Assembly: GCA_003158745.1 (NCBI GenBank)
Contig: PMLC01000150.1
Span: forward strand, 1-64,000
Source: Acidobacteriota bacterium
GTDB lineage: Bacteria; Acidobacteriota; Thermoanaerobaculia; Thermoanaerobaculales; Thermoanaerobaculaceae
Reading direction: 5' to 3'
DNA length: 64,000 nt
The notes beneath the pieces were generated by a model that was not told the origin of the DNA, did not search any database, and worked only from the letters and a program-made list of their open reading frames with translations. Within the stretch, counting starts at the first letter, position 1; each line of letters begins with the position of its first letter. Below are positions 3,001-26,720 of the stretch, in pieces. The translations under genes were made by a program, and so were the position numbers.

Positions 3001-3957
3001 ATGAGCGAGGACCCCAGAGCGATCCGGATCGGTGTCTCATCCTGTCTGCTCGGCTGCAAGGTGCGCTTCGACGGAGGGCACAAGAAGGACGACTTCCTGG
3101 TGGGCACCTTCGGACGATGGGTCGAGTGGGTTCCGGTGTGCCCTGAGGTCGAGGTCAGGATGGGCACGCCGCGCGAGTCGGTGCGGCTTGTCCGCGAGGG
3201 GGACGGGGTCCGGATGGTGGCCCCCAAGAGCGGCAAGGACTGGACGGACGCCATGGGCTCGTACGCGGTGGAGCGCGTCGAGGAGCTTGTCGGCAAGCGC
3301 CTCTGCGGCTACGTGTTGAAGAAGGACTCGCCATCGTGCGGGATGGAACGCGTCAAGGTCTACGGCGCCGGCATGCCGACCAAGTCGGGTACCGGGGTGT
3401 TTGCTCAGGCGCTACTCGCGCGTCTTCCCAACCTGCCCGTCGAGGAGGAGGGTCGCCTGTGCGATCCCCAGTTGCGCGACAACTTCGTCGAGAGGGTTTT
3501 TGCCTACCACCGGCTCCGGCAGTTCTTCGACGGCCGTTGGGTGCTCAGTGGGCTGGTAGCGTTTCACACCGCAAACAAGCTGCAGCTGATGGCGCACGCT
3601 CCCAAGGCGTATGAGGCGCTCGGGAGGCTGGTGGCCGGGGCAAAGGCGACACCACGCGACGAGGTCACGGTCCGGTACGAAGACGCCTTTATGCAGGGGC
3701 TCAAGGTGGTCGCGACGGTCCGGCGCAACACCAATGTGCTCCAGCACATCCTCGGCTACTTCAAGAATTTGCTCGATACCGATGCGCGCGCCGAGCTCCT
3801 CGCGCTGATCGAGGATTACCACCGTGGCCTGGTTCCCCTGATCGTCCCGATCACGCTGGTCCGGCACTACGTTCGGCTGCATGGGGTGAGCTACCTCGCG
3901 GGGCAGACCTACCTGGAGCCTCACCCCAAAGAGCTGATGCTCAGGAACCACGTATGA
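3001..3957 (+). CDS. DUF523 and DUF1722 domain protein (YbgA-like)
   Basis: IRIGVSSCLLGCKVRFDGGHK...WVPVCPEVEVRMGTPRE...KKDSPSCGMERVKVY then DUF1722-like C-terminus. Confidence 0.85.
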   Translation: MSEDPRAIRIGVSSCLLGCKVRFDGGHKKDDFLVGTFGRWVEWVPVCPEVEVRMGTPRESVRLVREGDGVRMVAPKSGKDWTDAMGSYAVERVEELVGKRLCGYVLKKDSPSCGMERVKVYGAGMPTKSGTGVFAQALLARLPNLPVEEEGRLCDPQLRDNFVERVFAYHRLRQFFDGRWVLSGLVAFHTANKLQLMAHAPKAYEALGRLVAGAKATPRDEVTVRYEDAFMQGLKVVATVRRNTNVLQHILGYFKNLLDTDARAELLALIEDYHRGLVPLIVPITLVRHYVRLHGVSYLAGQTYLEPHPKELMLRNHV

Positions 3958-4048
3958 GCGGGGCGGCCGGGACTTCACCCGCCTCCCATCGCGATCCGGT
4001 CTCGTCGCCACAACGTTCGGCGGGGAATGGAGATGAAGTCGGCCCCGT

Positions 4049-5179
4049 TTGGGCATCACACGGATGCCACGACCGCTTGCGGTCCGGCCCGGGAGGAGCC
4101 TGCACCCTGCGATGGCGGCCAAGCCCACCGAACTCACGCTGACGCTGACCCCGAGGTCGCGCTACGATGCCATCGACGTCGCGGCCGCGATCCGCGGGGA
4201 GTTTGGTGACGTCCTCGTCGCCTTTCCGCGCGCGACGTACTGCTCGCTCCACACTACGGCCGGGTACCTCGAGCAAAGCCTCTCGGCGCGTCTCGATCAT
4301 CGTCGCGACCGACTGGACCCGTTCATGCGGACGTTCCAGGCGCTGTTCCCGCCTGGAGCGGGCTACCGTCACGACCGGCTCCAGGAACGCTCCGAACTCT
4401 CCGAGGCCCAACGGCACCGCGAGCCGAAGAACGCGGACTCGCACCTCACGTACATCGGCTCCGGGCTGCGCAACTGCGTGACATACGTCAACCGGCCCGG
4501 GGAGCCGGTCTTCTTCATGGACCTCGACGGCGTCAACGACGGGCGGTCCCGGACGCGGCGCACCTGCGTCCTGGCATACAGCCGCGAGGAGACGGTGGCG
4601 ACGGTGCGGTGCGAGATCCCTGTGTCCAAGCACCCCATCGACTCGGTCAACCTCGCGGATCCGCGCACCGGAATCCTCGCCCTTGGCGAGGAGCTCATCC
4701 GGCGCCATGGGGTCGCGAAGGGGCGCCTCGAGATCGCACTCGACCCCGGCGAGAGAGATGCCGGCGTGACGGTCAACGAATACGAGACGCTCCTGATGCG
4801 GCACGACCTCGCGGAGGTGCTCGCCGATCCCCTGAAGTTCGTGGCTCGAACTGGGAAGCGGATCCTGCGCGACCCGAGGGCGATCGCGAGCAAGGGCCTG
4901 GGGTACGCCCGCTACGACATGGTCCAGGTGCTCAACGAGCTGATGGACGCGTTTCGGATCTCCGAGTCGGCGGTTGAGACGCTGCTGGCTCGGGCGATGG
5001 CCGTCCCCGCCCGGCGTCTCCTGCGGTTCAAACGCGCCGTGAGCCTGCTGGTCTTGGACGGGACCGGGTCTTCCAGCGTTCTCGTGCGCGGAACGTACCA
5101 GAATCCGATCCTGATCCAGTGGGCCGCCTCGCCTGGCGGCAGCCGCACCCTCCTGCTTCGGCTCCTGAGGTTCAGCTAG
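4049..5179 (+). CDS. YjbQ/UPF0047-like domain protein with long C-terminal extension
   Basis: YCSLHTTAGY...YRHD...NADSHLTYIGSGLRNCVTYV resembles the YjbQ fold motifs; about 200 residues follow without a recognised domain; true start probably the internal ATG at MAAKPTEL. Confidence 0.6.
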   Translation: MGITRMPRPLAVRPGRSLHPAMAAKPTELTLTLTPRSRYDAIDVAAAIRGEFGDVLVAFPRATYCSLHTTAGYLEQSLSARLDHRRDRLDPFMRTFQALFPPGAGYRHDRLQERSELSEAQRHREPKNADSHLTYIGSGLRNCVTYVNRPGEPVFFMDLDGVNDGRSRTRRTCVLAYSREETVATVRCEIPVSKHPIDSVNLADPRTGILALGEELIRRHGVAKGRLEIALDPGERDAGVTVNEYETLLMRHDLAEVLADPLKFVARTGKRILRDPRAIASKGLGYARYDMVQVLNELMDAFRISESAVETLLARAMAVPARRLLRFKRAVSLLVLDGTGSSSVLVRGTYQNPILIQWAASPGGSRTLLLRLLRFS

Positions 5180-5214
5180 TTGCGCGTGTCTTGGGCGGCG
5201 GAGATGATGTGGCC

Positions 5215-5982
5215 ATGAGCCTTTCCATCGGGCAGACCTTTGTTGTGGGCCTGGGCGAGGTCGGACGACGGCTCTCCGGCGCCCTTGCCTCTTCGGGGAC
5301 CGCGGTCATCCCCATATCCCGCAAGTGTGGTTGGGAACATCTCTCGGCCGACCGGGACGCCCCTGTCCTGGTGTGCGTGCGCGAGGAGGCGCTCACGGAC
5401 GCGGTTTCTCGCCTGCACGGGGTTGCAGCCGAGCGGCTCGTCTTCGTGCAGAACGGTTGGATCAGGCCAGCACTCGCCGGCCTGCCGGGCTGCTCTCGGG
5501 GCCTGATCTGGTTTACGAGCAAAGGCGATTTCTACAAGGTGCTGCGTCCGAGCATCTTCTCGGGTCCGGCCGTCGCAACGATCACCGAAGCACTCGTGCA
5601 TGGCGGGATCGCTGCCACGGCCGTTGACGCCCGTCCGTTCGCTGCGGCCGAGGCCGAGAAGATGGGGTTCAACTGCGTCGTGGGGCTGCCCCTCGCCGTG
5701 CACGCGTTGAGTCTCGGAGAGTACCTGGTGCGGCACGCGGCGGAGGCGGAGGTTGTGTTCGCCGAAGCGGTCTCGATCACGGCGCGCGCCTTGGGGGTCG
5801 TCCCGTCGGACGGCTGGTGGCCCGAGTTCCTCCGGGCCGCCGAGCCGTTGGGCTGGGTGCGGTCAAGCGTGGCCAAGGCGCTCGAGTACCGCAACGGGGC
5901 CGTGGTGCGCCTCGCGCGAGAGCTCGGCGAACGCACGCCCGCCAACGAACGTCTGCTGGCAGCTACCGGGTTCCAAATCTGA
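5215..5982 (+). CDS. Ketopantoate reductase / Rossmann-fold dehydrogenase-like protein
   Basis: N-terminal VVGLGEVGRRLSGALASSG nucleotide-binding-like motif; start chosen at ATG 5215. Confidence 0.5.
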   Translation: MSLSIGQTFVVGLGEVGRRLSGALASSGTAVIPISRKCGWEHLSADRDAPVLVCVREEALTDAVSRLHGVAAERLVFVQNGWIRPALAGLPGCSRGLIWFTSKGDFYKVLRPSIFSGPAVATITEALVHGGIAATAVDARPFAAAEAEKMGFNCVVGLPLAVHALSLGEYLVRHAAEAEVVFAEAVSITARALGVVPSDGWWPEFLRAAEPLGWVRSSVAKALEYRNGAVVRLARELGERTPANERLLAATGFQI

Positions 5983-11088: not shown

Positions 11089-11385
11089 GCGACCCCCGTC
11101 TTGTGCCGGCGCGGCACAAGCGGATTATAGACCCGCCACGCGGGTCGGCTGGCAAACCTCGTGACGGGCGGACCAGGCTCCGAGGGGTCGGAGACCGCTC
11201 CCGCTTCGTGCGGATCAGGGCCGGCTCGATGTTTGGCAAGTGGGGCGGGGGTTCGGCTTCATCAACGCCCTGTGGGCGCGCGAGGAGGTGAGAGAGGAAG
11301 GTGCTCGCACCGCGGTGCCGTGCGCCGCGCTTCGGTTGAATGCGTGGGCTAGTATTGGGAACTTGATGTGGTACCGGGAGGGCGT

Positions 11386-12264
11386 ATGGGGCGATCGAAC
11401 GAGTTTGTCGCGCGTTACCGCTTCACTACGGGTGAAGGACTCCACCTGGCGGACATGGATCCGGCCGATACCGGGCGGCTGATGTCGAAGCAAAAGGCCC
11501 AGGCGGCTCTCGCCAAGGGGATCGAGAAACTCAGTACCCTCCAGGAAAGACTCTATGCTCAAGACCGTTGGGCCGTTTTGCTGGTGTTCCAAGGGATGGA
11601 CGCGGCCGGGAAGGACGGCACGATCAAACATGTCATGTCGGGGGTCAACCCCCAGGGGTGCGAGGTCCACTCGTTCAAGGTGCCGTCCACGGAAGAGCTG
11701 GATCACGACTTTCTCTGGCGCTGCGTGGTGCGCCTGCCGGAACGGGGACGGATCGGGATCTTCAACCGCTCATGCTACGAGGAAGTGCTAGTCGTGCGGG
11801 TGCACCCCGAGCTCCTCGAGCGCCAGCGCCTGCCTTCCGGCCTCGTCGGCCGGCGTATCTGGAAGGAGCGCTTCGAGGACATCAACGCGTTGGAACGCCA
11901 CCTGGCCCGCAACGGGACGCGGATCCTCAAGTTCTTCCTGCACGTGTCGCGCGGTGAGCAGCGCAAGCGGTTTCTGGAGCGGCTCGACACGCCGGAGAAG
12001 AGGTGGAAGTTCTCCTCTGCCGATATCACCGAGCGGCCCCACTGGGACGCCTACATGACGGCGTACGAGGAGATGCTCCGAGGTACAGCCACCCGCAATG
12101 CACCTTGGTACGTTGTTCCCGCCGATCACAAGTGGTTCGCCCATTATGTGGTGGCAGAGGCCGTGATTGCGGCTCTGGAGGAACTCGACCTCGCGTTCCC
12201 GAAGGTCGACAGGGTGCGGGAGAAGGAGCTCAGGAGAGTCCGGACGGAACTCATGGCCGAGTAG
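11386..12264 (+). CDS. ppk2: Polyphosphate kinase 2 family protein
   Basis: LLVFQGMDAAGKDGTIKHVMSGVNPQGCEVHSFKVPSTEELDHDFLWR...GRIGIFNRSCYEEVLVVRVHPE. Confidence 0.92.
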   Translation: MGRSNEFVARYRFTTGEGLHLADMDPADTGRLMSKQKAQAALAKGIEKLSTLQERLYAQDRWAVLLVFQGMDAAGKDGTIKHVMSGVNPQGCEVHSFKVPSTEELDHDFLWRCVVRLPERGRIGIFNRSCYEEVLVVRVHPELLERQRLPSGLVGRRIWKERFEDINALERHLARNGTRILKFFLHVSRGEQRKRFLERLDTPEKRWKFSSADITERPHWDAYMTAYEEMLRGTATRNAPWYVVPADHKWFAHYVVAEAVIAALEELDLAFPKVDRVREKELRRVRTELMAE

Positions 12265-12292: not shown

Positions 12293-14165
12293 TCAGACTG
12301 GTTCCGGCAAGGAGTCTGGACCGAGGGGCGCTGGCCGGGCGGATTCCCTCAGTGTGGTGGTGGCGGCTCGACGCATGGTCTGGTGGAATGCGAAAAACTG
12401 CTCTGCGCCGTCTCGCCCCATATAGCGCTCGAGCAGCTTTCGCTGGGTGGACACGAGGTCAACCACCACGAGTGCGTCCACGACGTCGGAAAAATCGCGG
12501 TCTACGTTGAAACACGCGATTCGACCGCCGATGTGCAGGTACTGTCGAACCAGCACCGGGATCCCGCGTCCTCCCTCAATGTCGGCAACCATCTCCGACA
12601 GGTCCTCGAGGCCACGGAGCGAATCGACAACGGCCTCCAGATCCAGTCCGCGTGGTGTGCGCATCGGGAACGGCCGGCGAGGACGCACCGACGGCAGCAA
12701 CGCGCCGTCGTTCGCCGCGCTGCCGAGGTAGCGCACCATCAGTTCCCGAGATACCTGTCCATACTCCTGGCTGATGCTCACCGGGCCAAATACGTAACGG
12801 TAGCGAGGGTTGCGGACCACGAAAGCGCCGATCCCCTGCCAGAGGAGGAGAAGCGCGGAGTGAGAGCGTTGATAATCCGGATGGATGGATGAACGAGCGA
12901 CCCAACTCCAGAGCCTGGTGGATCCGCGTGACGCCCTCAGTGCCGAAACGGAAAAGGGTGCTGGTGTACAGGCCAGCCATCCCGTGCCTTTGGAGAACGA
13001 CATCGGTCTGCCCGAGCCGGTACGCACCGGCAACAGCACCGGCCCTGGAGTCCCAGAGGCAGAGGTGCAGATACTCCTGGTCGAATCGGTCGAGGTCTCG
13101 CGCACGACCAGTACCTTCGCCTGCAGCTCGGAAAGTGGCCTCTCGCCCTCGTCCGATCTCCAAGAGGAGGTTTGGGATTTCACCCGCGCGCGCCAGCAGA
13201 ACGCGAAAACCGCCACCGTGGGCGAGCGTCGCCTCCGGAGGCAGAGCTTCCACCTCGCACTTCAACGTCGCAGCAGGAACCGGGCTCGCGATCCGTTGCC
13301 GGAAACGGCGAGGTGGAGAGGGCGCCACCGGCGCACCTTGATAGGCGAGCAACTGGGTCCGACCTTGCACCGAACCGATAAGTCTCTCGTCGCTGTCCAG
13401 CTCTGCAAAAGAGTCCGGGAGGACCGGCCGGCCAACCACCAGTTTGAGCAAGCGTCCACTCTGCTTCAGGAGTTGGCGCGGGAGCAAGGCGGTCCGGAGT
13501 CTCGGGTGAAGCAATCCCGCAAGCTGAAAGAGCGCGCCGTTGCGCCCGGGGAAGAAGATCGGGACGATCGTGGCGCCGGTGCGCCGGGCGAGGCGCACGA
13601 CCGTGGCGCTCCACGGCGGGTCATCGACCGTGCCGCGGCGCAGGTCGAAACTCGCGACTTCGCCGGTCGGGAAGACGGCGAGTAGCCCCCCGTTTTCGAG
13701 AAACTCAACGGCACGGCGGAGACCACCAAGGTTGCGCGAGGCGGCGCCGCGTCCCCCGAAGGGATCCACAGGTATGAAAAGACCCTGCAACTCGGGGATG
13801 AGCGAAAGGAATTGATTGCCCATCACCCGGACGTCGGGCCGAACCGTCGAGAGCGCCCAAGCGAGGACGAGGCCTTCGGCCCCACCAAAGGGGTGGTTGG
13901 CGACAACCACCACCGGACCGAGTCTCGGGATGCGGGAGAGGTCGGCGGGAGCAACGTCGCAGCTAATGCCGAGATGGCTGAGGGCGCGCTCGAGGAACTC
14001 CGAGTCGCTGGAGCGAGAGATAGCACGGTATCTCTTCTGCAAGGAGGCAAGACCGCTGACGGCGTCGATCGCCGCCGCGACCAACCGGCCGCCTGGGGGC
14101 AAACGGCCGTCCAGGATTCTGGAGACGGAGAAAACCCTGGTCGGGACTTGCAGATCTTGGGCCAT
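12293..14165 (-). pseudogene. Lysophospholipid acyltransferase + GNAT/hemolysin-type acyltransferase fusion, frameshifted at a (GGAT)3 repeat
   Basis: Frame 1: MAQDLQVPTRVF...VVVVANHPFGGAEG...FPTGEVASF...ALELGRSFIHP; continues in the frame of ORF 12293..13216 as DYQRSHSALLLLWQGIGAFVVRNPRYRYVFGPVSISQEY. Confidence 0.8.
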
Positions 14166-14470
14166 GCGCACCCCTGCCCGACAGTCTGTCCAGTGTGATG
14201 TGAGAGGAGGCGAAAGTGGCGTGAGGACCGCGTGAACATCCAAACAGGCTGACGGTGTTCTAGGGGTTCGCGCAAGGGGTTTTGCCTTCACGGCGATTTC
14301 ACACCTTTCCACAATTCTTGGGAGGGCGTACGGTTCACGCCAGCCGAGTCAGGCGAGGGTTGGCGCACGTCCCACCGGAGGACCGGGGCTACCTGCGGCT
14401 GATCGTGCAGCTAAACTGTGGTTGACGTGAGCGAGGAGGCGCCGAGGCGGTCCTCCGTGGTCGACTGAGC

Positions 14471-16054
14471 ATGAGCGAGAAGCAAACCCAACCCGTGCCG
14501 CTCGATGCAATGAGCGAAGAGCTGACGTTTCCCGTACGCGTCGCTTGCATCGACGTGGGCTCCAACGCGCTCCGGTACGTGGCCGCCGAGTTCCGCGCGC
14601 CGGACAAGTACCGGATCGTCGAGCAGGAGCGTGCTGCCGTGCGTCTCGGGCACGACGTCTTCCTGACCGGCCGCCTCACCGGCGGGGCCATCGACGCGGC
14701 GGTGGCTGCCCTGACCGCATTCGCGAAGCGCATGCGGGACGCGAATGTCGACGTCTACCGGGGCGTCGCGACCAGCGCCGTGCGGGAGAGCTCGAACGCT
14801 CGGGAGTTCCTGCAGCGCGTGCACGAGGAGGCCGGCCTCGATCTCGAGGTGATCTCCGGCTCAGAGGAGGCGCGGCTCGTCCATGTTGCAGTCCAGCACG
14901 TCGTCGACCTTGCCGGCCGCGACTGGATCGTTGTGGATGTCGGCGGGGGCAGCGTCGAAGTCCTCCTTGTCGATGGCAGCGGAATCCGGTGGAGCGAATC
15001 GCACACAATGGGCTCAGTACGCCTCCTGGAGGAACTCTCGGAGGCCGGCGAGGAGCCGGGCCGCTTCCGCCGCCTGCTGGAGGAGTACACGGCGACGCTG
15101 CGGCTGCCCCCTGCGGCTCAGTTTCGGCGGCCTGGCGGCTTTATTGCGACGGGCGGAAACGCAGAGACGCTTGCCCAACTCGCCGGAACCGAGGGTGGGC
15201 CGGGAAAGCCCTCTGTGCTGACCCTCGAAGCGACGAGGACGATCATCGAGAAGCTGTCCAAGCTCTCGTACCGCCAGCGCGTCGAGGAGTTGGGATTGCG
15301 CGAGGACCGCGCAGATGTCGTGCTTCCGGCCGCTCTCGTTTATGAACGGCTCGCACAGCTCTCGGGCGCCTCCTCGATGATCGTCCCCGGTGTTGGGATC
15401 AAGGAGGGTGTCCTGTACGACGTCGTCGAGGCCGTGACCACGCAGCGCGCTCACGCAGACAGGCAGGAGCGCGAGCTTGTCACCGCTCTGGTTGCCATAG
15501 GTCGACGCTTCATGTTTGACGAAGCGCATGCGTCTCAGGTGGCGAAACACTCCCTGTCGTTGTTCGACCAGCTGCAGGAACTGCACAAGCTCGACAGATC
15601 GGACCGCAAAATCCTCCAGGCTGCTGCCTGGCTCCACGACATCGGTGGATATATCAGTTACAAGCGTCACCACAAGCACTCGATGTACCTGATCGCGCAG
15701 TCCGAACTGCCAGGCCTCTCGGACGCGGAGGTCGCGCTCGCCGCGAGCGTCGCGCGCTACCACCGGAAGAGCGAGCCGGCTCCAAGCCACGACGAGTTCG
15801 CCGGCATGAAAGCGGCCGACCAGAGACGGGTCCTTGCGCTGGCCGCTATTCTCCGGCTGGCAGACGCCCTCGACCGTGAACACCTTGAGCGCGTGCGAGC
15901 CGTCAGCGTGGAGGTGAAGGGCGGGGATGTGGTGCTTCGTCTTGAGGGCAAGGGTGATTTGCTTCTCGAGAAGTGGGCGCTGAAACGTAAGGCGCCGATG
16001 TTCGAGCGGGTTTACGAGCGCAAGGTGCGCGTCCGCAACGGCGGAGGAGACTGA
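14471..16054 (+). CDS. ppx: Ppx/GppA family exopolyphosphatase
   Basis: VACIDVGSNALRYVAAEF...VDVGGGSVEVLLVDG...MGSVRLLEEL and C-terminal HD-like domain (AAWLHDIGGYISYKRHHKHS). Confidence 0.92.
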   Translation: MSEKQTQPVPLDAMSEELTFPVRVACIDVGSNALRYVAAEFRAPDKYRIVEQERAAVRLGHDVFLTGRLTGGAIDAAVAALTAFAKRMRDANVDVYRGVATSAVRESSNAREFLQRVHEEAGLDLEVISGSEEARLVHVAVQHVVDLAGRDWIVVDVGGGSVEVLLVDGSGIRWSESHTMGSVRLLEELSEAGEEPGRFRRLLEEYTATLRLPPAAQFRRPGGFIATGGNAETLAQLAGTEGGPGKPSVLTLEATRTIIEKLSKLSYRQRVEELGLREDRADVVLPAALVYERLAQLSGASSMIVPGVGIKEGVLYDVVEAVTTQRAHADRQERELVTALVAIGRRFMFDEAHASQVAKHSLSLFDQLQELHKLDRSDRKILQAAAWLHDIGGYISYKRHHKHSMYLIAQSELPGLSDAEVALAASVARYHRKSEPAPSHDEFAGMKAADQRRVLALAAILRLADALDREHLERVRAVSVEVKGGDVVLRLEGKGDLLLEKWALKRKAPMFERVYERKVRVRNGGGD

Positions 16055-16087
16055 CACAGTCCGGCAATGCCGGAGGGAGAACAGATC

Positions 16088-16480
16088 ATGGCCATGACGC
16101 GACGTACCACCAAGAGACAGGCTACAGGGAACGCCGCGGCCGTTGCGAATCGTCCGACCGCGGGGATTCGCTCGACACGGCGAGCCGGCGCAGCAACCAG
16201 GGGTCGGGCATTGCCGGCCGAGCAGCTCGTCACGGGCATTTTGGATGTGAAGAAGGCCCTCGACGAGGCTGTTGCTCAGTTCTCGGCCCGGGTCAGCGGC
16301 CAGCTCGGCGAGGTGTTGCGGGCTCTTGAGGGCCGCGAGCCGGCCGCGAAAGGCACGATCAAAGCTCTGGTTGAGCGGGTGCGGGAGCTCAAACTCAAGC
16401 CGGAGAAAGGACGCCTGAAGGACCTGATGCGCCTGCACGACCTTGCCGAGGACCTGGTCGACATGCTGCCCAGGCGGTGA
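16088..16480 (+). CDS. Small protein with basic N-terminus and helical C-terminus, unknown function
   Basis: MAMTRRTTKRQATGNAAAVANRPTAGIRSTRRAGAATRGR...; directly 3' of ppx and 5' of the phosphoesterase, same strand. Confidence 0.6.
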   Translation: MAMTRRTTKRQATGNAAAVANRPTAGIRSTRRAGAATRGRALPAEQLVTGILDVKKALDEAVAQFSARVSGQLGEVLRALEGREPAAKGTIKALVERVRELKLKPEKGRLKDLMRLHDLAEDLVDMLPRR

Positions 16481-16498: not shown

Positions 16499-17179
16499 AT
16501 GCGCATCGCCGTCCTCTCGGACATTCACGCGAACCTCGAGGCGCTCGAGGCGGCGCTCGCCGATCTCGAAGATCGTGAGGCCGAGACCGTACTGGTCGCC
16601 GGCGATCTCGTCGGGGACGGGCCAGACCCAGCAGGCGTGGTGAAACTCTTGCGAACGAGGACGTTTGCCACCATCCGGGGCAACGTCGACAACAAGGTCG
16701 TCGCCACGGCGGCACTCCCCGAGGCACAACAAGCTGTGCTGCTGGAAAAGAAGAAGAGGGCCGATCTGGTCCGGACCGCCAGACAGCTCGGCCGCACCAA
16801 CCTGAGGTGGCTTGAGAGACTGCCCACCGCACTCACGCTGCGGTTCGAGGGAAAAGTGCTGCAGCTCGTTCATGGCTCACCGTTGGGCGACACCGACTAC
16901 ATCTTCCCGAGCCTCACCTCGAGGGCGCTTGCAGCGAAGTTGGGTTCCAACCAGCCCGACGTGCTGGTGTGCGGCCACTCCCACATCCCGTTCGCCAGGC
17001 GCATTCGCGGCGTGACGGTTGTCAACGCCGGCTCTGTTGGCCGTCCTGTCGACGGGGACCCTCGCGGTTCCTACGCTCTTGTGGAGATCGAACGGGACCA
17101 GCCTCCGCGGGCGCGGATCGTGCGCTTTTCGTACCCCTTCGAGAGATCCCGCGCGCGGATCATTCCAAGACAAGGTTGA
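16499..17179 (+). CDS. Metallophosphoesterase (YfcE/MJ0936-like)
   Basis: MRIAVLSDIHANLEALEAAL...VAGDLVGDGPDP...RGNVDNKV...VHGSP...VCGHSHIPF...NAGSVGRP. Confidence 0.92.
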   Translation: MRIAVLSDIHANLEALEAALADLEDREAETVLVAGDLVGDGPDPAGVVKLLRTRTFATIRGNVDNKVVATAALPEAQQAVLLEKKKRADLVRTARQLGRTNLRWLERLPTALTLRFEGKVLQLVHGSPLGDTDYIFPSLTSRALAAKLGSNQPDVLVCGHSHIPFARRIRGVTVVNAGSVGRPVDGDPRGSYALVEIERDQPPRARIVRFSYPFERSRARIIPRQG

Positions 17180-17219: not shown

Positions 17220-17969
17220 TCACGCGCTGAGTGCGATCCGCACTGCGAGCTCTTCCCAGAGTCCCGCAAACGCCTGCGCCGCCTCGCTCACCGGGGCGTA
17301 CGTCAGGAGTGGGGCTCGGTGAAGCCCCATCTTCTCAACCACACTGGCTGCGGGGATGGTGGCTCGAAGGAAACTCTCATCGGCGTGACACCACTCGAGA
17401 GCCTCCCTGTGCATCGTTTTTCGCCGGTCCACCATGGAGAGAAAGGGCAACACCAGAAGGTCGCGCTTGCCAACCTTCGCTGCGAACGAGCGTACCTGAT
17501 CGAGGCTTCGAAGCGAGAGTGTGGTTGGGATGACCGGCACCAGCAGCGCGTCGGCGGCACGCAGCACGCTCTCACTCGCCAGCGACACCGACGGAGGGCA
17601 GTCGAGAATGACCGCGTCGTACTCGTCGGCCAGTGGGGCAAGCTTGAGAGCGAGCCGTTTGGCAGGACCCCGGCGGCCATCGAGGTCGAGGTCAAAGCGG
17701 CGATACGAGAAATCGGCCGGCAGCAGGTCGAGGTTGTCGAAATCCGTTCCGCGGATCCAACGCCGGAGTTCGGCCGACCGTCGCAGCAGCTTCCGTCCTC
17801 CACCCTTGACCTTCGGCTTGACCCGAAAGTAGAAGCTGGCTGCACCCTGAGGGTCCAGATCCCAGAGCAGAGTGCGCCACCCCTCTGCTGCGGCCAGGGC
17901 AGCGAGGTTCACCGCGGCTGCCGTCTTCCCTACGCCCCCCTTGATCGTCCACACGGCCACGACGCGCAT
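17220..17969 (-). CDS. ParA-family ATPase
   Basis: MRVVAVWTIKGGVGKTAAAVNLAALAAAEGWRTLLWDLDPQGAAS; deviant Walker A KGGVGKT, DCPPS motif. Confidence 0.93.
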   Translation of the reverse strand: MRVVAVWTIKGGVGKTAAAVNLAALAAAEGWRTLLWDLDPQGAASFYFRVKPKVKGGGRKLLRRSAELRRWIRGTDFDNLDLLPADFSYRRFDLDLDGRRGPAKRLALKLAPLADEYDAVILDCPPSVSLASESVLRAADALLVPVIPTTLSLRSLDQVRSFAAKVGKRDLLVLPFLSMVDRRKTMHREALEWCHADESFLRATIPAASVVEKMGLHRAPLLTYAPVSEAAQAFAGLWEELAVRIALSA

Positions 17970-19516
17970 CACTCGCCTCCGCGTCCCTGGACCAGGTGCA
18001 CGAACCGACGCCTGACATTGGGCGAAGCGAACGTCGCAAGGCGGGCCAGAACCCTCTCCGCTTCGGCCGTTTGCCGGCGCTCGAGCTCGGCCACCAGACG
18101 GCCCATCGTAAGAAGCGTGGCGGCGCCCGCCCCCCCACGCAGCACCTCGTCGGCAAGGCCGGCCAGTCGCTCGCGCTGGAGCCACGCGTCGTGGTAATTG
18201 CCGAGGCTGTCCTGCACGAGTTTGAGTTCGGCGACCAGGGCGCCAGTCGCTTCGGCATGCCACAGGCTCGAAAAGAACTCGAGGAGGTATCGGAGCTTCT
18301 TGGCGTCGATCCGCAGCCGGTGCAGCTCGGCCGCCGGGGCATTCGGCTCAAGGGCGGCGGCGCACGACGAGAGCCGGCGGTACGCCTGCAGGACATGCTT
18401 GGATGCAACCTCCGCGACGGGGACGGCGCCGAGTTCACCCCCCAGGAGACGACGGCGCAGGAGCCTCTTCCAGCCTCGCAGCAAGGCTGCAAACCGCGTG
18501 GACTCGAGAACCGCGACGAGATCCCGGTGTGCGACCTCCCGCTCCGCGCGCAGAAGTTGGCTCACTGGGGCGAGCACGTCGCCATGCTCTTGCGTGAACG
18601 ACAACCGACGGTGCGCGATCTCGAGCAGGAACACGTCGAGGTCGCGGCACGGGTTCGTGGCCGTGGCCAACCAGCGGAACTCCTCCGCGAAAGGCGCCAC
18701 CACGTCGACGGGAAGCACATCCATAAGCTGGCCAATGCAAGTCCGCGTCCGGCGTGTCGCCACCCGGAGATCGTGGAGGAACTCCGTGTCAAGATTGCGC
18801 ACGGTTCCGGCCACGTTTGCCTCCAGCGTCGAGATCAACTGCGCCAAGATGCGACGCACCGCGTGCTCGGCCGGTTCGGCCGGACGAAGCAAGACCGTCA
18901 CCTTGGAGCTGTAGTCTCCCGGCTCGCGGTCCGCGGCCGCGGCCGCCTCGACGAGCCCGTCATCACCGCGAGCTTCCACCCCGGCGAGTGCGCGCAGACG
19001 GTCGGCGACGCTTTCGCCGGCCGCAGCGTAGCCGAGCAGGGGCTCCACGGTTATGCGGCGGTGTCGAGAGCCGGATGGTGCCCCATCGCGCAACGGCTGG
19101 ACGCTGTCGAACCAGATCCGTACCAGGGTTTTCCCTTCTCCGTCGAGGATGCGCAGCAGGCGCCGCTGGACGCTCGCTTCGCCGACGACGAGCAGCGCTC
19201 GCTCACCCGCAGCGGCGCCTACCTGACGTCGCAGCGGACCCTCCGGAAGGTCTTGAGCGAACGCGACCCCACGATGAAGCGGGGCTCGCCGGGGTGGTCG
19301 GTCGTCCCCGGGCTCCCAGCGAGCGAACGTCCGATCGCCTTCGATCTCCAGAGTGAGACGACCGCCGTGCCGCCACAACCCCCAGTCGAATGTGTCGAGG
19401 TGCCGCCGGAGGATCCTGTGCAGCGCCGCCGCCGCAATGGAGCAATTAGGGGCGAGAACTTGAGCAATGCGCCTCACCGCGACTCTACCGACCACCTGGA
19501 ACTGATATGAGGTCAA
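17969..19516 (-). CDS. CHAD domain protein, possible CYTH-like N-terminal domain
   Basis: FLHDLRVATRRTRTCIGQL...NPCRDLDVFLLEI...LHRLRIDAKKLRYLLEFF; stop overlaps the parA-like start by 1 nt. Confidence 0.88.
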   Translation of the reverse strand: MTSYQFQVVGRVAVRRIAQVLAPNCSIAAAALHRILRRHLDTFDWGLWRHGGRLTLEIEGDRTFARWEPGDDRPPRRAPLHRGVAFAQDLPEGPLRRQVGAAAGERALLVVGEASVQRRLLRILDGEGKTLVRIWFDSVQPLRDGAPSGSRHRRITVEPLLGYAAAGESVADRLRALAGVEARGDDGLVEAAAAADREPGDYSSKVTVLLRPAEPAEHAVRRILAQLISTLEANVAGTVRNLDTEFLHDLRVATRRTRTCIGQLMDVLPVDVVAPFAEEFRWLATATNPCRDLDVFLLEIAHRRLSFTQEHGDVLAPVSQLLRAEREVAHRDLVAVLESTRFAALLRGWKRLLRRRLLGGELGAVPVAEVASKHVLQAYRRLSSCAAALEPNAPAAELHRLRIDAKKLRYLLEFFSSLWHAEATGALVAELKLVQDSLGNYHDAWLQRERLAGLADEVLRGGAGAATLLTMGRLVAELERRQTAEAERVLARLATFASPNVRRRFVHLVQGRGGE

Positions 19517-19685: not shown

Positions 19686-20771
19686 TCAAGCTGATGTTGT
19701 CTTATCGAGGCAGGTGCGTGCGCGGCCGACTTTGGCGATGATCTGTTGAACGGTGGCGGCCCAGACGAAGGGTCGAGGGTGATCGTTGTGGGCGCTGATG
19801 TAGGTCTCGATGGCTGCAATCAGGTCGGCGACGCTGGTAAAGGCGCTGCGGCGGATCTGCTTGTCGGTCAGATCGCGGAAGAACCGTTCGACCAAGTTGA
19901 GCCACGAGGAGCTAGTCGGGATGAAGTGGATGTGGAAGCGAGAATGGCGCGCGAGCCAAGCCTTGACCTTGGGATGCTTGTGGGTGGCGTAGTTGTCGGC
20001 GATGACGTGGAGGTCGAGGTCGGCGGGCGTCTGGGCGTCGATCAGCTTGAGGAACTTGATCCACTCCTGGTGGCGGTGCCGGGCCATACAGGTCGAGATC
20101 ACCTTATCGTTGGGCAGTTCCAAGGCAGCGAACAGGGTCGTCGTGCCGTGCCGTTTGTAGTCGTGGGTCATCGTGCCGCACCGGCCCGGGCGCAGCGGGA
20201 GGTCGGGCCGTGTGCGATCAAGCGCTTGGATCTGACTCTTCTCGTCGGCGCTCAGCGCCAGGGCGAGCTCGGGCGGGTTGAGGTAAAGCCCCACCACGTC
20301 CTCGAGCTTCTCCAGGAATCGGGGGTCGTTACTGAGCTTGAAGGTGCGGACCCGATGCGGTTTCAGGTCGTACGCCTTCCAGATCCGCTGAACCATGGAG
20401 TGGCTCACCCCAAGGTGAGCGGCCAGCCTCCGTGTTGTCCACTGCGTCGCGTGCGGCGGCTTGGTTTGCGTCGTCGTCTCGACGATCAACGCCTCAACGC
20501 GACGGCGCTGCCGCGGCGGACGACCACCGCGCGGAGCATCCTTGGCGATCCCTGCCAAGCCCTTGGTAAGGAACCGCCTCCGCCACAACCCCACGGTCTG
20601 CCGACTCGTGCCCAGCTGCGCCGCAATCTCCAGGTTCTGCGCCCAGTGGGCGGCCATCATCACAATCCGTGCCCGCAACACAAGCCGTGCCGGCGTGCTT
20701 CGGCCTCGCGCCCAGCGCATCAGCACCTTTCGATCGTCCTCGGTAAGCTCGATTCGCTTCGCAACGCGCAT
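19686..20771 (-). mobile_element. IS630-family transposase, full-length ORF
   Basis: HTH N-terminus (MRWARGRSTPARLVLRARIVMMAAHW), ALSADEKSQIQALDRTRPDLPL, HVIADNYATHKHPKVKAWLARHSRFHIHFIPTSSSWLNLVERFFRDLT DDE region. Confidence 0.95.
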
Positions 20772-20812: not shown

Positions 20813-22975
20813 ATGAGGCACACCGCTAGGATGGCCCGAACAGCGAAATCCACGCCGTCAGTTGGTCCCGAGGCCTTTCTGAATCGGGAACTCTCATGGC
20901 TCTCCTTCGCGCGGCGGGTCCTGGCATTTGTGGCAGACCCCAACGTCCCCCTGCTCGAGCGGGTGAAGTTCGCGGGGATCATGGGGATGCTCCACGACGA
21001 GTTCTTCATGAAGCGGATGGGCGGCCTCAAGCGGCAGGTGAAGATGAAGCTCGACAAGCGGTCGCTCGACGGACGCACCCCGACGGAGGAGTTCCGGGCC
21101 TGTCGCGACGAGATCCTCGAGCAGATGGTCGAGCTTGCCCGCGTCGTCAACGGCGAGATCCGACCTGCTTTGGCCGCAGCTGGCATCCCTATCCTCGACT
21201 ACGGGACACTGGCGAAGAAGGACAAGAGCCACCTGTCGACCACATTCGCGCGGACAATTTTGCCGATCCTGACACCCCTCGCGGTCGATGCCGAACACCC
21301 GTTTCCTTTCATCTCGAACCTGGGCTTCAACCTGGCGGTGAAGGTAGCTCTCCGGAGAAGCGAGAGGTTCGTCAGGATCAAGGTCCCGGCCAACAGGGGG
21401 CGCTGGGTGCCGCTCCCGGGCGGCGGGGTCGTGCCGCTCGAGCAGGTGATCGCCGCGAATCTCGACCATCTCTTCCCCGAGGAGCGCGTCGTGGGGGTGT
21501 GGTTCTTTAGGGTGACACGCGGCATCGAGGGGGACGCGAGCCAGGAAGACCGGCACGATGACGCCGAGCAAACGGCGACGCCAGGGAGCATCATCAGCCA
21601 GGTGACGGACGAGCTCAAGGCGCGTCGCTTCGCCGGCGTTGTGCGTCTGGAGGTCTCCCCAGACATGCCGCGGGGTCTTCGCACCTGGCTGACCCAGCAA
21701 CTGGGTGTCCAAGCGGAGGATCTCTACACCCCCGAGTACTTCCTCGGTCTTGCCGACCTGCTCTCGTTCAAGGTGGACAATCGCGCCGATCTGCGCGACC
21801 GGCCTCATGTGGCCGTCACGCACCCTCGCCTGGTCGGGCTCGAGAAGGCGGGAGCCGAGGAGTTCTTCGCCGAGATCCGGCAGGGCGACATTCTCCTCCA
21901 CCACCCATACCAGAGCTTCGACACGTCGGTGCTGCGCTTCCTCCAGCTCGCGGCAACCGATCCCAAGGTGCTGGCCATCAAGCTGACCATTTACCGCACC
22001 TCAGCGGACTCTCCGATCGTTCGAGCGCTCGCCGAGGCGGCTCGAGCCGGCAAGCAGGTCGCGGTCCTCGTCGAGATCACTGCTCGGTTTGACGAAGCCC
22101 CCAACATCGCATGGGGACGCTTGTTGGAACGCGAGGGCGCTCACGTCGCCTACGGTGTGGAGAAGCTCAAGACCCATGTGAAGCTCGCCTTGGTCGTGCG
22201 AGAGGAGCCCGACGGCATCAGGAGCTACGTGCACGTCGGCACCGGCAACTACCACACCGGTACGGCAAAGCTCTACGAGGACATCGGGATCCTGTCCTGC
22301 GAGCCGAAGCTTGCCAATGATGTCGCCTCCGTCTTCAACGAACTCACGGGATCGACCCCGCCTCGGGATTTCAACCGCCTGCTTGTCGCTCCGACCTTCA
22401 TGCGGGAGAGGTTCTCGACCCTGATCCGCCGCGAAGCCCAGCACGCGGCCGAGGGGCGGCGTTCGGGAATCCGCGCCAAGATGAACCAACTCCAGGACCC
22501 TGCGCTCATTCGCGAGTTGTATGCCGCAAGTCGGGCGGGTGTGCCTATCACCCTCAACATCCGGGGCCTCTGCTGCCTGAGACCGGGGGTCCCTGGCCTG
22601 TCTGAGAACATTCGTGTCTACTCGGTCCTGGGCCGTTTCCTCGAACATGCGCGCATCTACTGCTTCACGAATGGAGGCGCACCGGAATATTACATCGGTT
22701 CGGCCGACTGGATGAAGCGCAACCTTGATCACCGCGTGGAGACCGTCGCACCTGTATGTGACCCCACTCTCCAAGAAGAGCTCCGCGCGATCTTGGACGT
22801 CTACGACGCGGACAACACCAGCGCCTGGGACCTGCGGACGGACGGGACATATGCGCGCCGGACGCCGAGTGAGGGCGATTCGGGAAGGTCTGCCCAGGCC
22901 GTCCTCGAGAGTCTCGCACATGGCGGTGCCGCTCCTGAGCACGACGCCGAGTCGGAGGACGAGGCGACAGCCTAA
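20813..22975 (+). CDS. ppk1: Polyphosphate kinase 1
   Basis: FLNRELSWLSFARRVL...HHPYQSFDTSVLRFLQLAATDPKVLAIKLTIYRT...YVHVGTGNYHTGTAKLYEDIGI. Confidence 0.96.
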   Translation: MRHTARMARTAKSTPSVGPEAFLNRELSWLSFARRVLAFVADPNVPLLERVKFAGIMGMLHDEFFMKRMGGLKRQVKMKLDKRSLDGRTPTEEFRACRDEILEQMVELARVVNGEIRPALAAAGIPILDYGTLAKKDKSHLSTTFARTILPILTPLAVDAEHPFPFISNLGFNLAVKVALRRSERFVRIKVPANRGRWVPLPGGGVVPLEQVIAANLDHLFPEERVVGVWFFRVTRGIEGDASQEDRHDDAEQTATPGSIISQVTDELKARRFAGVVRLEVSPDMPRGLRTWLTQQLGVQAEDLYTPEYFLGLADLLSFKVDNRADLRDRPHVAVTHPRLVGLEKAGAEEFFAEIRQGDILLHHPYQSFDTSVLRFLQLAATDPKVLAIKLTIYRTSADSPIVRALAEAARAGKQVAVLVEITARFDEAPNIAWGRLLEREGAHVAYGVEKLKTHVKLALVVREEPDGIRSYVHVGTGNYHTGTAKLYEDIGILSCEPKLANDVASVFNELTGSTPPRDFNRLLVAPTFMRERFSTLIRREAQHAAEGRRSGIRAKMNQLQDPALIRELYAASRAGVPITLNIRGLCCLRPGVPGLSENIRVYSVLGRFLEHARIYCFTNGGAPEYYIGSADWMKRNLDHRVETVAPVCDPTLQEELRAILDVYDADNTSAWDLRTDGTYARRTPSEGDSGRSAQAVLESLAHGGAAPEHDAESEDEATA

Positions 22976-23575: not shown

Positions 23576-23741
23576 TCCATGGAGATCGCAGCGGGCTTTC
23601 GGGTGACGAGAGTTGCCTGCCGGTTTGGTTCGCCGAGGCCAAACCCGTCCCCTCCACGCAATCACGCCGGCTCGTCAGCGTGGCGCCAGGGGGGCTGAAA
23701 TGACCTCCTGTGCGGCGATAATCGAGGGGGGGGTCGAGACC

Positions 23742-26720
23742 ATGATCGCCTGGGACAAACCGGAGGCCCTTTCGGAGTACGACCCGACGCATGTGGTGCT
23801 CCGCGACCTGATGGGGTATCGGGTGCGCGAGGTGCTACTCGTGTCTTCGCTTTACGACTCGTACATTCTGGAGGAGGATGGCCAGCTCTCGGAGAGCCTC
23901 GATGCCGAGTTCTATCAGTTGAACCTCTCCACGTCGCCGCGAATCACCCAGGTCTCCACGGCCCAGGAAGCGCTGGCGACGCTGCGGGAGCGGCCGTTCG
24001 ACCTGGTAATCGCGATGCCACGCCTGGGAGGGATGGATGTCCGTGCGTTTGCCCGCGTCGTGAAGGAACTGCACCCCGATCTTCCCGTCGTGATGCTCGC
24101 CGACAACCACTTCGAGGCGCACCGGGTCAAGGAACTGAACCGCCCGCCGCTGCTCGACCAGGTGTTCGTGTGGCGCGGGGACGTGGCGTTGTTCCTGGCG
24201 ATCATCAAGCTCATCGAGGACCGTCGCAACGCGCACCGCGATACCTCAATCGCGGGCGTCAGAACGATCATCCTGATCGAGAACTCCGTCCGGTTCTACT
24301 CCGCATACCTCCCGATGTTGTACGCCGAGCTGACCAAACAGACGCAGGCGCTCATGGCGGACGGGGTCAATGCCAGGCAGCGGCTGCGGCGGATGAAGGC
24401 ACGCACCAAGATCCTGCTCGCCGAGACGTTCGAGGAAGGCTGGGCGCTGTTCGAGGAGTTCCGCGCCACCACGCTCGGAGTCATCACCGATGCGCGCTTT
24501 CCGAGGGGCGGCGAGAACGACCCCGAAGCCGGCCTGGAGTTCGTTCGGCGCGTCAAAGCCGAGGACCCCGACATGCCTGCGCTCGTGCAGTCGACCGACG
24601 AGTCGCTTGCCGAGCGCGCCCACGCCCTTGGCGCGGCGTTCCTCCACAAGCACTCCCCATGGCTGCTCGAGGAACTGCGCCGGTTCATCCAGACCAGCCT
24701 CGGGTTTGGTGACTTCGTGTTCGTGAATCCCGCGACCGGTGTCGAGGTGGCGAGGGTTCCGGACCTCGCCGGCATGGCGAAGACGCTGCGCACGGTGCCG
24801 GGCGCGTCGCTGCGCTACCATGCATCGAGGAACCACTTTTCCAACTGGTGCATGGCCCGCACCGAGTTCGCGCTCGCCGCGCGAATCCGGCCCTGGAAGG
24901 TGTCCGACTTCAAGGATGTCGAGGAGCTGCGAACCTACCTCGTCGAAGCGTTCGCCGAGCTGCACTCGGAAGCCCGCCGAGGCGTGGTCGCCGACTTTGC
25001 TTCGCGTGAGTTCGAAGGGCTTTCCGGCTTCGTGCGGATCGGCACCGGGTCGATGGGCGGTAAGGGACGGGGACTCGGCTTCGTCAATGCGCTGCTGGCG
25101 CGCGAGCAGACGGGGGAGGACGGCGTTCGCATCTTCGTGCCTCCCGCCGCGGTGATCGGCACGGATGTCTTCGACGAGTTCATTGCGCAGGCGGAGCTCT
25201 CCGCGCTCGCTCTCTCCGACGCCTCCGACGAGACGATCGACGAGGCTTTTCTGCGGTCGCCTCTTCCGGCTGCACTCGAACAGGACCTTCTGGCGATCGT
25301 GGAGCGGACGCGAGGGCCGCTCGCCGTCCGCTCCTCCAGCCTGCTCGAGGACTCCTACGACCAGCCGTTCGCCGGCATTTACGGCACGTTTATGCTCCCG
25401 AACGCCGATCCCGACGTGCGGATGCGGCTCGGCGAGTTGGCGGCGGCGGTGAAGCTCGTCTACGCCTCGACGTTCTCGAAGAACGCCAAGGCGTACGTTG
25501 CCAACACGCCCCACCGGCCCGAAGAGGAGAAGATGGCGGTCGTGGTCCAGGAGATCGTCGGGCGGCCGCATGGGCGCTACTTCTACCCTTCGTTCGCGGG
25601 CGTCGCGTGCTCGCGAAACTACTACCCGGTCCTTGGCTTGAAGGCCGAGGAAGGTCTCGCCGCCGTGGCGCTGGGGTTCGGCCGGACCGTTGTCGAGGGC
25701 GGGAGAGCGGTGCGCTTCTCGCCCGGTTCGCCGCGCAACGTCCCGCAATTCGCCTCAATGGAAGGGGTGCTCGACAGCGCGCAGCGGGAATTCTACGCGC
25801 TCGATCTCGAGCATGCCTCAACGCTCCGAGAGCCTGGCCACGCGGATGCCCTCGTGGCACTTTCACTCGAGACAGCCGAGCGTGACGGCACCCTTCACCA
25901 AGTTGGCTCCGTATACTCGGCGGACAACGACGCGGTGTACGACGGGGTGTCGCGGCCGGGGATTCGCCTCGTGACGTTCGCGCCGATCCTCAAGACCGGG
26001 GTTTTCCCACTGTCGCGGACCTTGACTGACCTGCTCGCCCTCGGGGAACGAGCGATGAGCTGCCCCGTCGAGGTGGAGTTCGCCGTGAACCTGCCCTCAC
26101 TCGGCGCGCTGGGTGAGTTCGCGGTGCTGCAGGTGCGGCCCCTTGTGGTGGAGGTCGGCAGCGAGGACCTCGACGAGGTGCTTCGAGTGATGGGGCCGGA
26201 GGGCGTCCTGTGCCTCTCGGAGCAGGCGCTCGGCCAGGGCAGGGTGCAAGACATCCGTGACGTGGTGTATGTCAAACCCGAGGCGTTCGACCGGGCGCAG
26301 ACAGTGGCGATTGCCGGCGAGGTCGAGCAGATCAACCACACGCTGGCGGAGGGCGGGAGGCCTTACCTCCTGGTCGGGCCGGGCCGGTGGGGAACATCCG
26401 ACCGCTGGCTAGGGGTTCCGGTGGAGTGGCACCAGATAGCCGGCGCTCGCGTGATCATCGAGACCGAGCTAGCGGACGTCCCGGTGACCCCATCGGAGGG
26501 CACCCACTTCTTTCAGAACATCACCTCGTTCGGGATCGGCTACCTTACGGTCGATGCGAGGAGCGGGCATGGGCGTGTGGACTTCGCGTGGCTCTCGGCA
26601 CGCCCTGCGGAAGCCGAAACTCGATTCCTCCGGCACGTTCGCCTCGAATCTCCCGTCGATGTCCGCATCGACGGTCGTTCCGGTCGCGGTGTCGTGCTCA
26701 AGGTTCCGTTCGGTTTCTGA
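23742..26720 (+). CDS. Receiver-like N-terminus plus PEP/pyruvate-binding (PPDK_N) domain protein
   Basis: VIAMPRLGGMDVRAFARVVKELHPDLPVVML (receiver-like); GTGSMGGKGRGLGFVNALL...GPLAVRSSSLLEDSYDQPFAGIYGTFMLPN (PPDK_N-like). Confidence 0.8.
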   Translation: MIAWDKPEALSEYDPTHVVLRDLMGYRVREVLLVSSLYDSYILEEDGQLSESLDAEFYQLNLSTSPRITQVSTAQEALATLRERPFDLVIAMPRLGGMDVRAFARVVKELHPDLPVVMLADNHFEAHRVKELNRPPLLDQVFVWRGDVALFLAIIKLIEDRRNAHRDTSIAGVRTIILIENSVRFYSAYLPMLYAELTKQTQALMADGVNARQRLRRMKARTKILLAETFEEGWALFEEFRATTLGVITDARFPRGGENDPEAGLEFVRRVKAEDPDMPALVQSTDESLAERAHALGAAFLHKHSPWLLEELRRFIQTSLGFGDFVFVNPATGVEVARVPDLAGMAKTLRTVPGASLRYHASRNHFSNWCMARTEFALAARIRPWKVSDFKDVEELRTYLVEAFAELHSEARRGVVADFASREFEGLSGFVRIGTGSMGGKGRGLGFVNALLAREQTGEDGVRIFVPPAAVIGTDVFDEFIAQAELSALALSDASDETIDEAFLRSPLPAALEQDLLAIVERTRGPLAVRSSSLLEDSYDQPFAGIYGTFMLPNADPDVRMRLGELAAAVKLVYASTFSKNAKAYVANTPHRPEEEKMAVVVQEIVGRPHGRYFYPSFAGVACSRNYYPVLGLKAEEGLAAVALGFGRTVVEGGRAVRFSPGSPRNVPQFASMEGVLDSAQREFYALDLEHASTLREPGHADALVALSLETAERDGTLHQVGSVYSADNDAVYDGVSRPGIRLVTFAPILKTGVFPLSRTLTDLLALGERAMSCPVEVEFAVNLPSLGALGEFAVLQVRPLVVEVGSEDLDEVLRVMGPEGVLCLSEQALGQGRVQDIRDVVYVKPEAFDRAQTVAIAGEVEQINHTLAEGGRPYLLVGPGRWGTSDRWLGVPVEWHQIAGARVIIETELADVPVTPSEGTHFFQNITSFGIGYLTVDARSGHGRVDFAWLSARPAEAETRFLRHVRLESPVDVRIDGRSGRGVVLKVPFGF

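Follow-up and report, generated by a model that had tools for sequence, protein, structure and literature searches.

What does a ParA-type ATPase do when the start of its gene overlaps the end of that for a CHAD protein, in the middle of a cluster of polyphosphate (polyP) genes? The question is raised by the 64,000-nucleotide stretch of acidobacterial DNA analysed here (the window), in which the two genes lie on the minus strand and meet in a TGATG junction. The A of this junction, base 17969, is common to the CHAD TGA and the ParA ATG, giving a 1-nt overlap that agrees with the preliminary description of an overlapping pair. Stop and start overlap in 12 of the 18 CHAD–ParA pairs measured, with a gap of at most 42 nt in all 18, and a search of the assembly places its single CHAD gene here. 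The pair and its surroundings comprise the following features, for which L034 and L035 are loci of acidobacterial relatives:

11368–12264, plus strand: PPK2-family polyphosphate kinase (family models; kept in L034 and L035)
14471–16054, plus strand: ppx, exopolyphosphatase (family models; kept in L034 and L035)
16067–16480, plus strand: orf137, small protein whose N-terminal tail is basic, in no Pfam or NCBIfam family; kept in the polyP clusters of relatives
16499–17179, plus strand: YfcE-like metallophosphoesterase (phosphodiesterase), convergent with ParA (family models)
17220–17969, minus strand: ParA/MinD-type ATPase of 249 aa, member of a discrete CHAD-linked subfamily (Pfam; model pLDDT 94.5; Soj fold, TM 0.91)
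17969–19516, minus strand: CHAD protein of 515 aa, with a CYTH/TTM-like N-terminal half lacking the usual catalytic start and a C-terminal CHAD
19686–20771, minus strand: DDE_3/HTH transposase gene separating CHAD from ppk1, outside the module (Pfam; absent there in L034 and L035)
20813–22975, plus strand: ppk1, encoding polyphosphate kinase 1 and divergent from CHAD (family models; same place in L034 and L035)

Also part of the cluster are Pit and DUF47/PhoU-like genes (Pfam), so that the gene order reads Pit, DUF47, PPK2, ppx, orf137 and the YfcE-like gene on the plus strand, then ParA and CHAD on the minus strand, the transposase gene and ppk1. The pair had been described as flanked by ppx and ppk1; both are close by, but neither is an immediate neighbour, as orf137 and the YfcE-like phosphodiesterase gene fill the interval between ppx and ParA, and the DDE_3 transposase gene fills that between ppk1 and CHAD. 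The ends of the transposase gene were searched for terminal repeats and none were found. L034 and L035 represent the closest relatives, with a ParA 79–80% identical to that of the window. In both, the genes for PPK2, ppx, orf137, YfcE, ParA, CHAD and Ppk1 follow the same order, CHAD is directly upstream of ParA on the same strand, and Ppk1 adjoins CHAD, the transposase gene being missing from that gap. The YfcE-like gene is kept in L034, L035 and G090 and stands beside CHAD in G016. Relatives of orf137 are found beside CHAD in L245 (30%) and with ppx/YfcE in L034 and L035, and orf137 is a possible accessory factor of the CHAD–ParA module. Located within the cluster is a minus-strand gene (12576–14312) whose product resembles OlsF, a bifunctional ornithine lipid synthase that makes membrane lipids under low phosphate; its 289 bits fall short of the equivalog cut-off, 620. 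Downstream of ppk1, a plus-strand gene (23613–26720) codes for a large protein in which receiver-like and PEP-synthase-like regions are matched below cut-offs only.

The CHAD protein is composed of two halves, of which the C-terminal contains the CHAD domain (residues 223–452; Pfam 174 bits, curated cut-off 25.6) and has as its best fold match the CtCHAD–polyP complex (PDB 6qva, TMt 0.90; model pLDDT 90.2). The resemblance of the N-terminal half to triphosphate tunnel enzymes is weak (Foldseek E of about 1e-4 to 1e-3, TMt of about 0.5–0.7), and this half has no Pfam CYTH match. An ExExK motif is the usual catalytic start of CYTH triphosphatases; the N-terminal strand of the window CHAD reads YQFQV, and an ExExK-type motif is not conserved among the aligned ParA-linked CHADs (A3). 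Residues H248, R251, R255, R291, R409 and Y410, which by our reading of the alignment pair with H253, R256, R260, R296, R418 and Y419 of CtCHAD, are present in the window CHAD and invariant in 18 aligned ParA-linked CHADs. Mutation of the CtCHAD residues lowers polyP binding, according to excerpts of the sources used here for CtCHAD polyP binding and for AlgP spacing (PMC9239181, PMC13052382, PMC6537752, PMC10241942). The polyP-binding site of the window CHAD is intact, and the retention of residues tested in CtCHAD mutants, together with the match to 6qva, upholds the earlier view of CHAD as a polyP-binding kind of protein.

The ParA begins with MRVVAVWTIKGGVGKT, which contains the deviant Walker A motif (KGGVGKT) that had been recognised previously, with both K10 and K15 present. 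The protein matches Pfam AAA_31 (110.5 bits) and CbiA (53 bits), and none of the NCBIfam models at its cut-off. Its AlphaFold model is closest in fold to Soj, followed by McdA (TM 0.83) and MinD, with BcsQ (TM 0.79) and FleN also among the neighbours. An identity as BcsQ was rejected on the NCBIfam BcsQ equivalog (64.1 bits, cut-off 157.85) and on a fold rank below Soj; the looser cut-off of Pfam CBP_BcsQ is passed (34.7 versus 21.3 bits). All ATPase motifs are kept across the ParA family alignment, with K10 and K15 in every row, and the ATPase core of the window ParA is intact. Arginines at the 207/210-type positions of Soj serve in DNA binding. These positions are basic in only 2–3% of the ParA family, so that nucleoid binding by the ParA is no more than a possibility. 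Positions R90, R154, K184 and H187 are basic in 91–100% of the family, H187 being invariant.

The preliminary description had noted no parB or parS nearby, and the window proved to contain no parS site at up to three mismatches and no credible ParB, the best match being meaningless (E 0.023); ParB was likewise sought in the fetched subfamily loci and none was found. The genome encodes two further ParA relatives, each with a ParB directly downstream. One of these parAB pairs is near gidB, yidC and dnaA (gene names read from translations), and just upstream of it is the sole parS-like site in the genome at up to two mismatches (C109:22071). The ParBs found elsewhere in the genome go with the two other ParAs, and the parS-like site with one of them. 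With no ParB in the window or in the subfamily loci searched and no parS in the window, a ParB/parS partner for the CHAD-linked ParA was rejected. Judged from sequence, the CHAD-linked ParA belongs to no ParABS system.

Members of its subfamily are present in 11 of 247 acidobacterial genomes, the source genome included, at scores of at least 189 bits, the next score being 114 bits. Gene coordinates put CHAD immediately upstream of ParA, in the same orientation, in nine of the 11, an adjacency with a binomial chance below 1e-29 if genomes are independent and 3,500 genes per genome are assumed. In G059 and G016 CHAD is away from ParA, either in the vicinity of Ppk1 or next to ppx, orf137 and YfcE. 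CHAD occurs in 147 of the 247 genomes, comprising all 11 subfamily-positive genomes versus 136 of the 236 subfamily-negative ones. A draw of 398 Pseudomonadota genomes yielded 70 that match the subfamily at 1e-38; in these CHAD is adjacent in six, present in 58 and not found in 12, and its presence compares with 35 of 75 subfamily-negative genomes (75 tested out of 326). A gammaproteobacterial draw of 369 genomes, which overlaps the former in some genomes, yielded 55 with a match at 1e-55, in 56 places. CHAD is directly upstream of ParA in 37 of 54 of these loci (38 if L322, with a CHAD score of 22 bits, is counted in), the remaining two places being G354 (adjacent) and G298 (non-adjacent). 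None of 105 control ParA loci has CHAD (0/21 Soj-type, with a flank of only about 1.5 kb, 0/80 viral and 0/4 others), and the 80 viral-contig ParA relatives, like 28 phage records, are generic-looking ParAs. The co-occurrence count proposed in the preliminary description therefore favours a link, with adjacency of 9/11, 6/70 and 37/54 versus 0/105 in the controls, shares that are possibly biased by search profiles seeded with CHAD-adjacent members (A1), while the presence statistics are confounded by kinship; the sampling covered two phyla and a plasmid collection.

Genes of polyP metabolism recur near the pair in other genomes. On Paracoccus plasmids the order is CHAD–ParA–CYTH–NUDIX, one copy being downstream of pst-phoU-phoB; two PPK2 genes and Ppk1 are near the pair in G090; and several gammaproteobacterial loci have Ppk1, Ppx, PPK2, Pit or CYTH near it. 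The functional link of CHAD–ParA to polyP is strong, and the pair is a genuine unit of function, kept together in numerous unrelated bacteria.

In a quick tree of 89 family rows, a branch supported at 100% divides the subfamily from Soj-type ParAs; G401 (locus L231) is over the search threshold, yet falls on the Soj side. CHAD adjacency appears on several branches, with seven changes, and the link is either old with several losses or repeatedly gained, both of which fit the tree. Two clades are located beside housekeeping genes, in the first tree TruA/RnfH/CysM with 31 rows and RpoZ/Aat with nine, ruling out a subfamily that is solely CHAD-linked. A CHAD match is missing from five RpoZ/Aat-clade genomes, and a Pontibacter plasmid carries a subfamily ParA with no CHAD beside it. 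Also ruled out is that every member resides in a ppk1 genome, as ppk1 was found in 36 of the 54 ParA genomes tested, most of the 18 negatives being on the TruA/RnfH side. PPK2 is present in 36 of 40 genomes tested, mostly of the TruA/RnfH clade, and by coordinates CHAD is next to PPK2 in many. G003 has CHAD–ParA, and a search of it for Ppk1 and PPK2 matched neither.

Small basic proteins accompany some of these loci. Lysine-rich neighbours were counted in four of 19 CHAD-adjacent, six of 31 TruA/RnfH, one of 31 other, none of nine RpoZ/Aat and none of 21 Soj loci, as well as in 4/54 gammaproteobacterial loci, and are a minority feature of the subfamily. Proteins with a helix-hairpin-helix and a lysine-rich tail are encoded on the same strand as the pair in L044 and L046 and 3′ of ParA in L278, L281 and L285, and in G364 (L216), a genome in which no CHAD was found, such a protein is directly upstream of ParA. 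In L047 the helix-hairpin-helix and lysine-rich tail are in frame with CHAD in a 667 aa open reading frame (3343–5346, minus strand), possibly a natural fusion; the two are separate genes in the related L046. An AlgP-like helical protein with lysine repeats is directly upstream of CHAD–ParA in G852 (L313); its place, like those in L278, L281 and L285, is derived from coordinates. Upstream of CHAD in L064, L065, L237 and L238 are short proteins resembling ribbon-helix-helix (RHH) proteins, of which three were scanned and all fell below Pfam cut-offs, one of the RHH-like proteins, on a Paracoccus plasmid, having a sub-threshold match to ParG. In the TruA/RnfH clade, 11 of 23 RnfH proteins have Lys/Ala-rich tails (counted by eye). 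Where these tails form long Lys/Ala repeats, the RnfH-family gene is divergent from ParA, for example at L161:660–1241 (minus strand) and L163:2958–3671 (plus strand). The window has no helix-hairpin-helix, AlgP-like or RHH-like partner, and its sole candidate is the basic-tailed orf137.

From these observations we infer that the most likely function of CHAD–ParA is that of an operon-encoded, ATP-driven module for the positioning and partition of polyP granules, in which CHAD would probably be the cargo adaptor. CHAD would coat the granule and stimulate ATP hydrolysis by ParA, either through its CYTH-like N-terminal half or through a small basic helper protein. ATP-bound ParA dimers would use a basic surface unlike that of Soj to attach to a matrix in the cell, which is probably the nucleoid, and the resulting ParA gradient would space the granules and then partition them at division. 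The preliminary proposal, that ParA may space or segregate polyP granules via CHAD, is supported in part by the missing ParB/parS, the CHAD linkage over wide evolutionary distances, the polyP-site residues and the recurring ppk1, ppx, PPK2, CYTH and Pit genes. Less in keeping with it are the loss of the Soj arginines 207/210, the Pseudomonadota genomes in which CHAD is non-adjacent (64/70) or was not found (12/70), the two clades beside housekeeping genes, the five RpoZ/Aat-clade genomes without a CHAD match, and G003, in which neither Ppk1 nor PPK2 was matched. A more elaborate arrangement, which we put forward only tentatively, is a three-part polyP-granule partition system composed of the ParA subfamily, the CHAD adaptor, whose CYTH-like half is without the usual catalytic start, and an interchangeable small basic protein binding nucleic acid or granules. 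The subfamily would have had this system from its origin, and certain clades would have broken it up. The small protein could be of the helix-hairpin-helix type with lysine tail, the AlgP-like type with H1 repeats or the ParG-like ribbon-helix-helix type, and such a system, if true, would be the first ATP-driven placing of polyP granules.

Other roles for the ParA have to be weighed against granule positioning. The ParA may be an ATP-dependent regulator or chaperone of a CHAD/Ppk complex that gates polyP synthesis or granule nucleation, in the manner of BcsQ and FleN on enzymes or transcription factors. Its close pairing with polyP enzymes, the presence of FleN and BcsQ among its structural neighbours and the missing Soj-type arginines are consistent with this role; it is nevertheless unlikely, given that the nearest sequence and fold are those of Soj-type partition ATPases (TM 0.91, compared with 0.79 for BcsQ) and that the small helpers, where found, resemble DNA- or granule-binding proteins. 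We consider it rather improbable that the subfamily positions cargo in general, using adaptors that differ between lineages, with CHAD just one of several adaptors and polyP one of several cargoes. The TruA/RnfH and RpoZ/Aat contexts, the five RpoZ/Aat-clade genomes with no CHAD match and the Pontibacter plasmid member would suit such a positioner, but CHAD linkage is recurrent on separate branches, non-adjacent genomes mostly have CHAD elsewhere (58/70), and PPK2 is frequent in the TruA/RnfH clade, often next to CHAD.

A conventional partition ATPase, of ParABS or plasmid type, sitting here by accident would have the same Soj fold, and some subfamily members are indeed on plasmids, including the Paracoccus plasmids with RHH-like proteins before CHAD, one with the sub-threshold ParG match. 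The lack of a ParB in the window and the subfamily loci searched and of a parS in the window, and the possession of ParBs by the two other ParAs of the genome, one of which owns its only parS-like site, make this highly improbable. A chance neighbourhood, for which no support was found outside the single genome, has next to no probability in view of the gammaproteobacterial and control counts (37/54 versus 0/105) and of the binomial value for 9/11 under its assumptions of independent genomes and 3,500 genes.

Positioning of polyP granules by the CHAD–ParA module is preferred, and the gene association itself has been seen before. A ppk–parA–CHAD cluster is already published for Acidithiobacillus: in the parts consulted, PMC10892726 describes folD, ppk, parA and CHAD as highly conserved together, PMC6416229 has the same folD–ppk1–parA–CHAD cluster, and both present the ParA as a plasmid/chromosome partitioning protein without suggesting that it acts on granules. 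The likeness to the window is one of gene association. A granule-positioning role was not found in the literature searched by title and start of abstract, a search with subscription papers mostly outside it. In the portion seen of a 2025 review (PMC13052382), AlgP is the sole entry for polyP granules, with its ATP dependence given as 'Unknown', and the proteins placing Caulobacter granules are stated to be not identified. CHAD–ParA is a good candidate for this missing machine, which places polyP storage granules and shares them out at cell division. As a widespread operon it offers a concrete ATPase and adaptor that are open to tests in cultivable bacteria and, if the proposal is true, a granule made of an inorganic polymer would join the cargoes sorted by ParA-type systems.

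Among known systems, AlgP is the factor that spaces polyP granules in Pseudomonas. The AlgP-like protein directly upstream of CHAD–ParA in G852 resembles it in architecture alone, matching no family model; the part seen of PMC13052382 names no ATPase that acts in AlgP spacing, and in the window the basic tail of orf137 is the only comparable feature. Phosins and CHAD proteins such as CtCHAD and ygiF share with the window CHAD the tested polyP-binding residues and, in ygiF, the order of a CYTH-like part followed by CHAD; the differences are that the CHAD described here is coupled to a ParA and that, by alignment, its CYTH-like half has no usual catalytic start. The ParABS system (Soj/Spo0J) is nearest to the ParA in sequence and fold, with an intact deviant Walker A in common, but here ParB and parS are missing and the Soj arginines are replaced, with invariant H187 and conserved R90, R154 and K184 instead.

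Similar in genetic layout is McdA/McdB, also an orphan ParA-type ATPase gene beside a cargo-adaptor gene, of the same fold and with no parS. Cyanobacterial McdA is not known to have the signature lysine, whereas K10 is kept in all rows of the subfamily. No McdB homologue or carboxysome locus was found among the window neighbours scanned, which are polyP and phosphate genes; the adaptor here is a CHAD polyP-binding protein rather than McdB, and the proposed cargo would be polyP rather than a shell.
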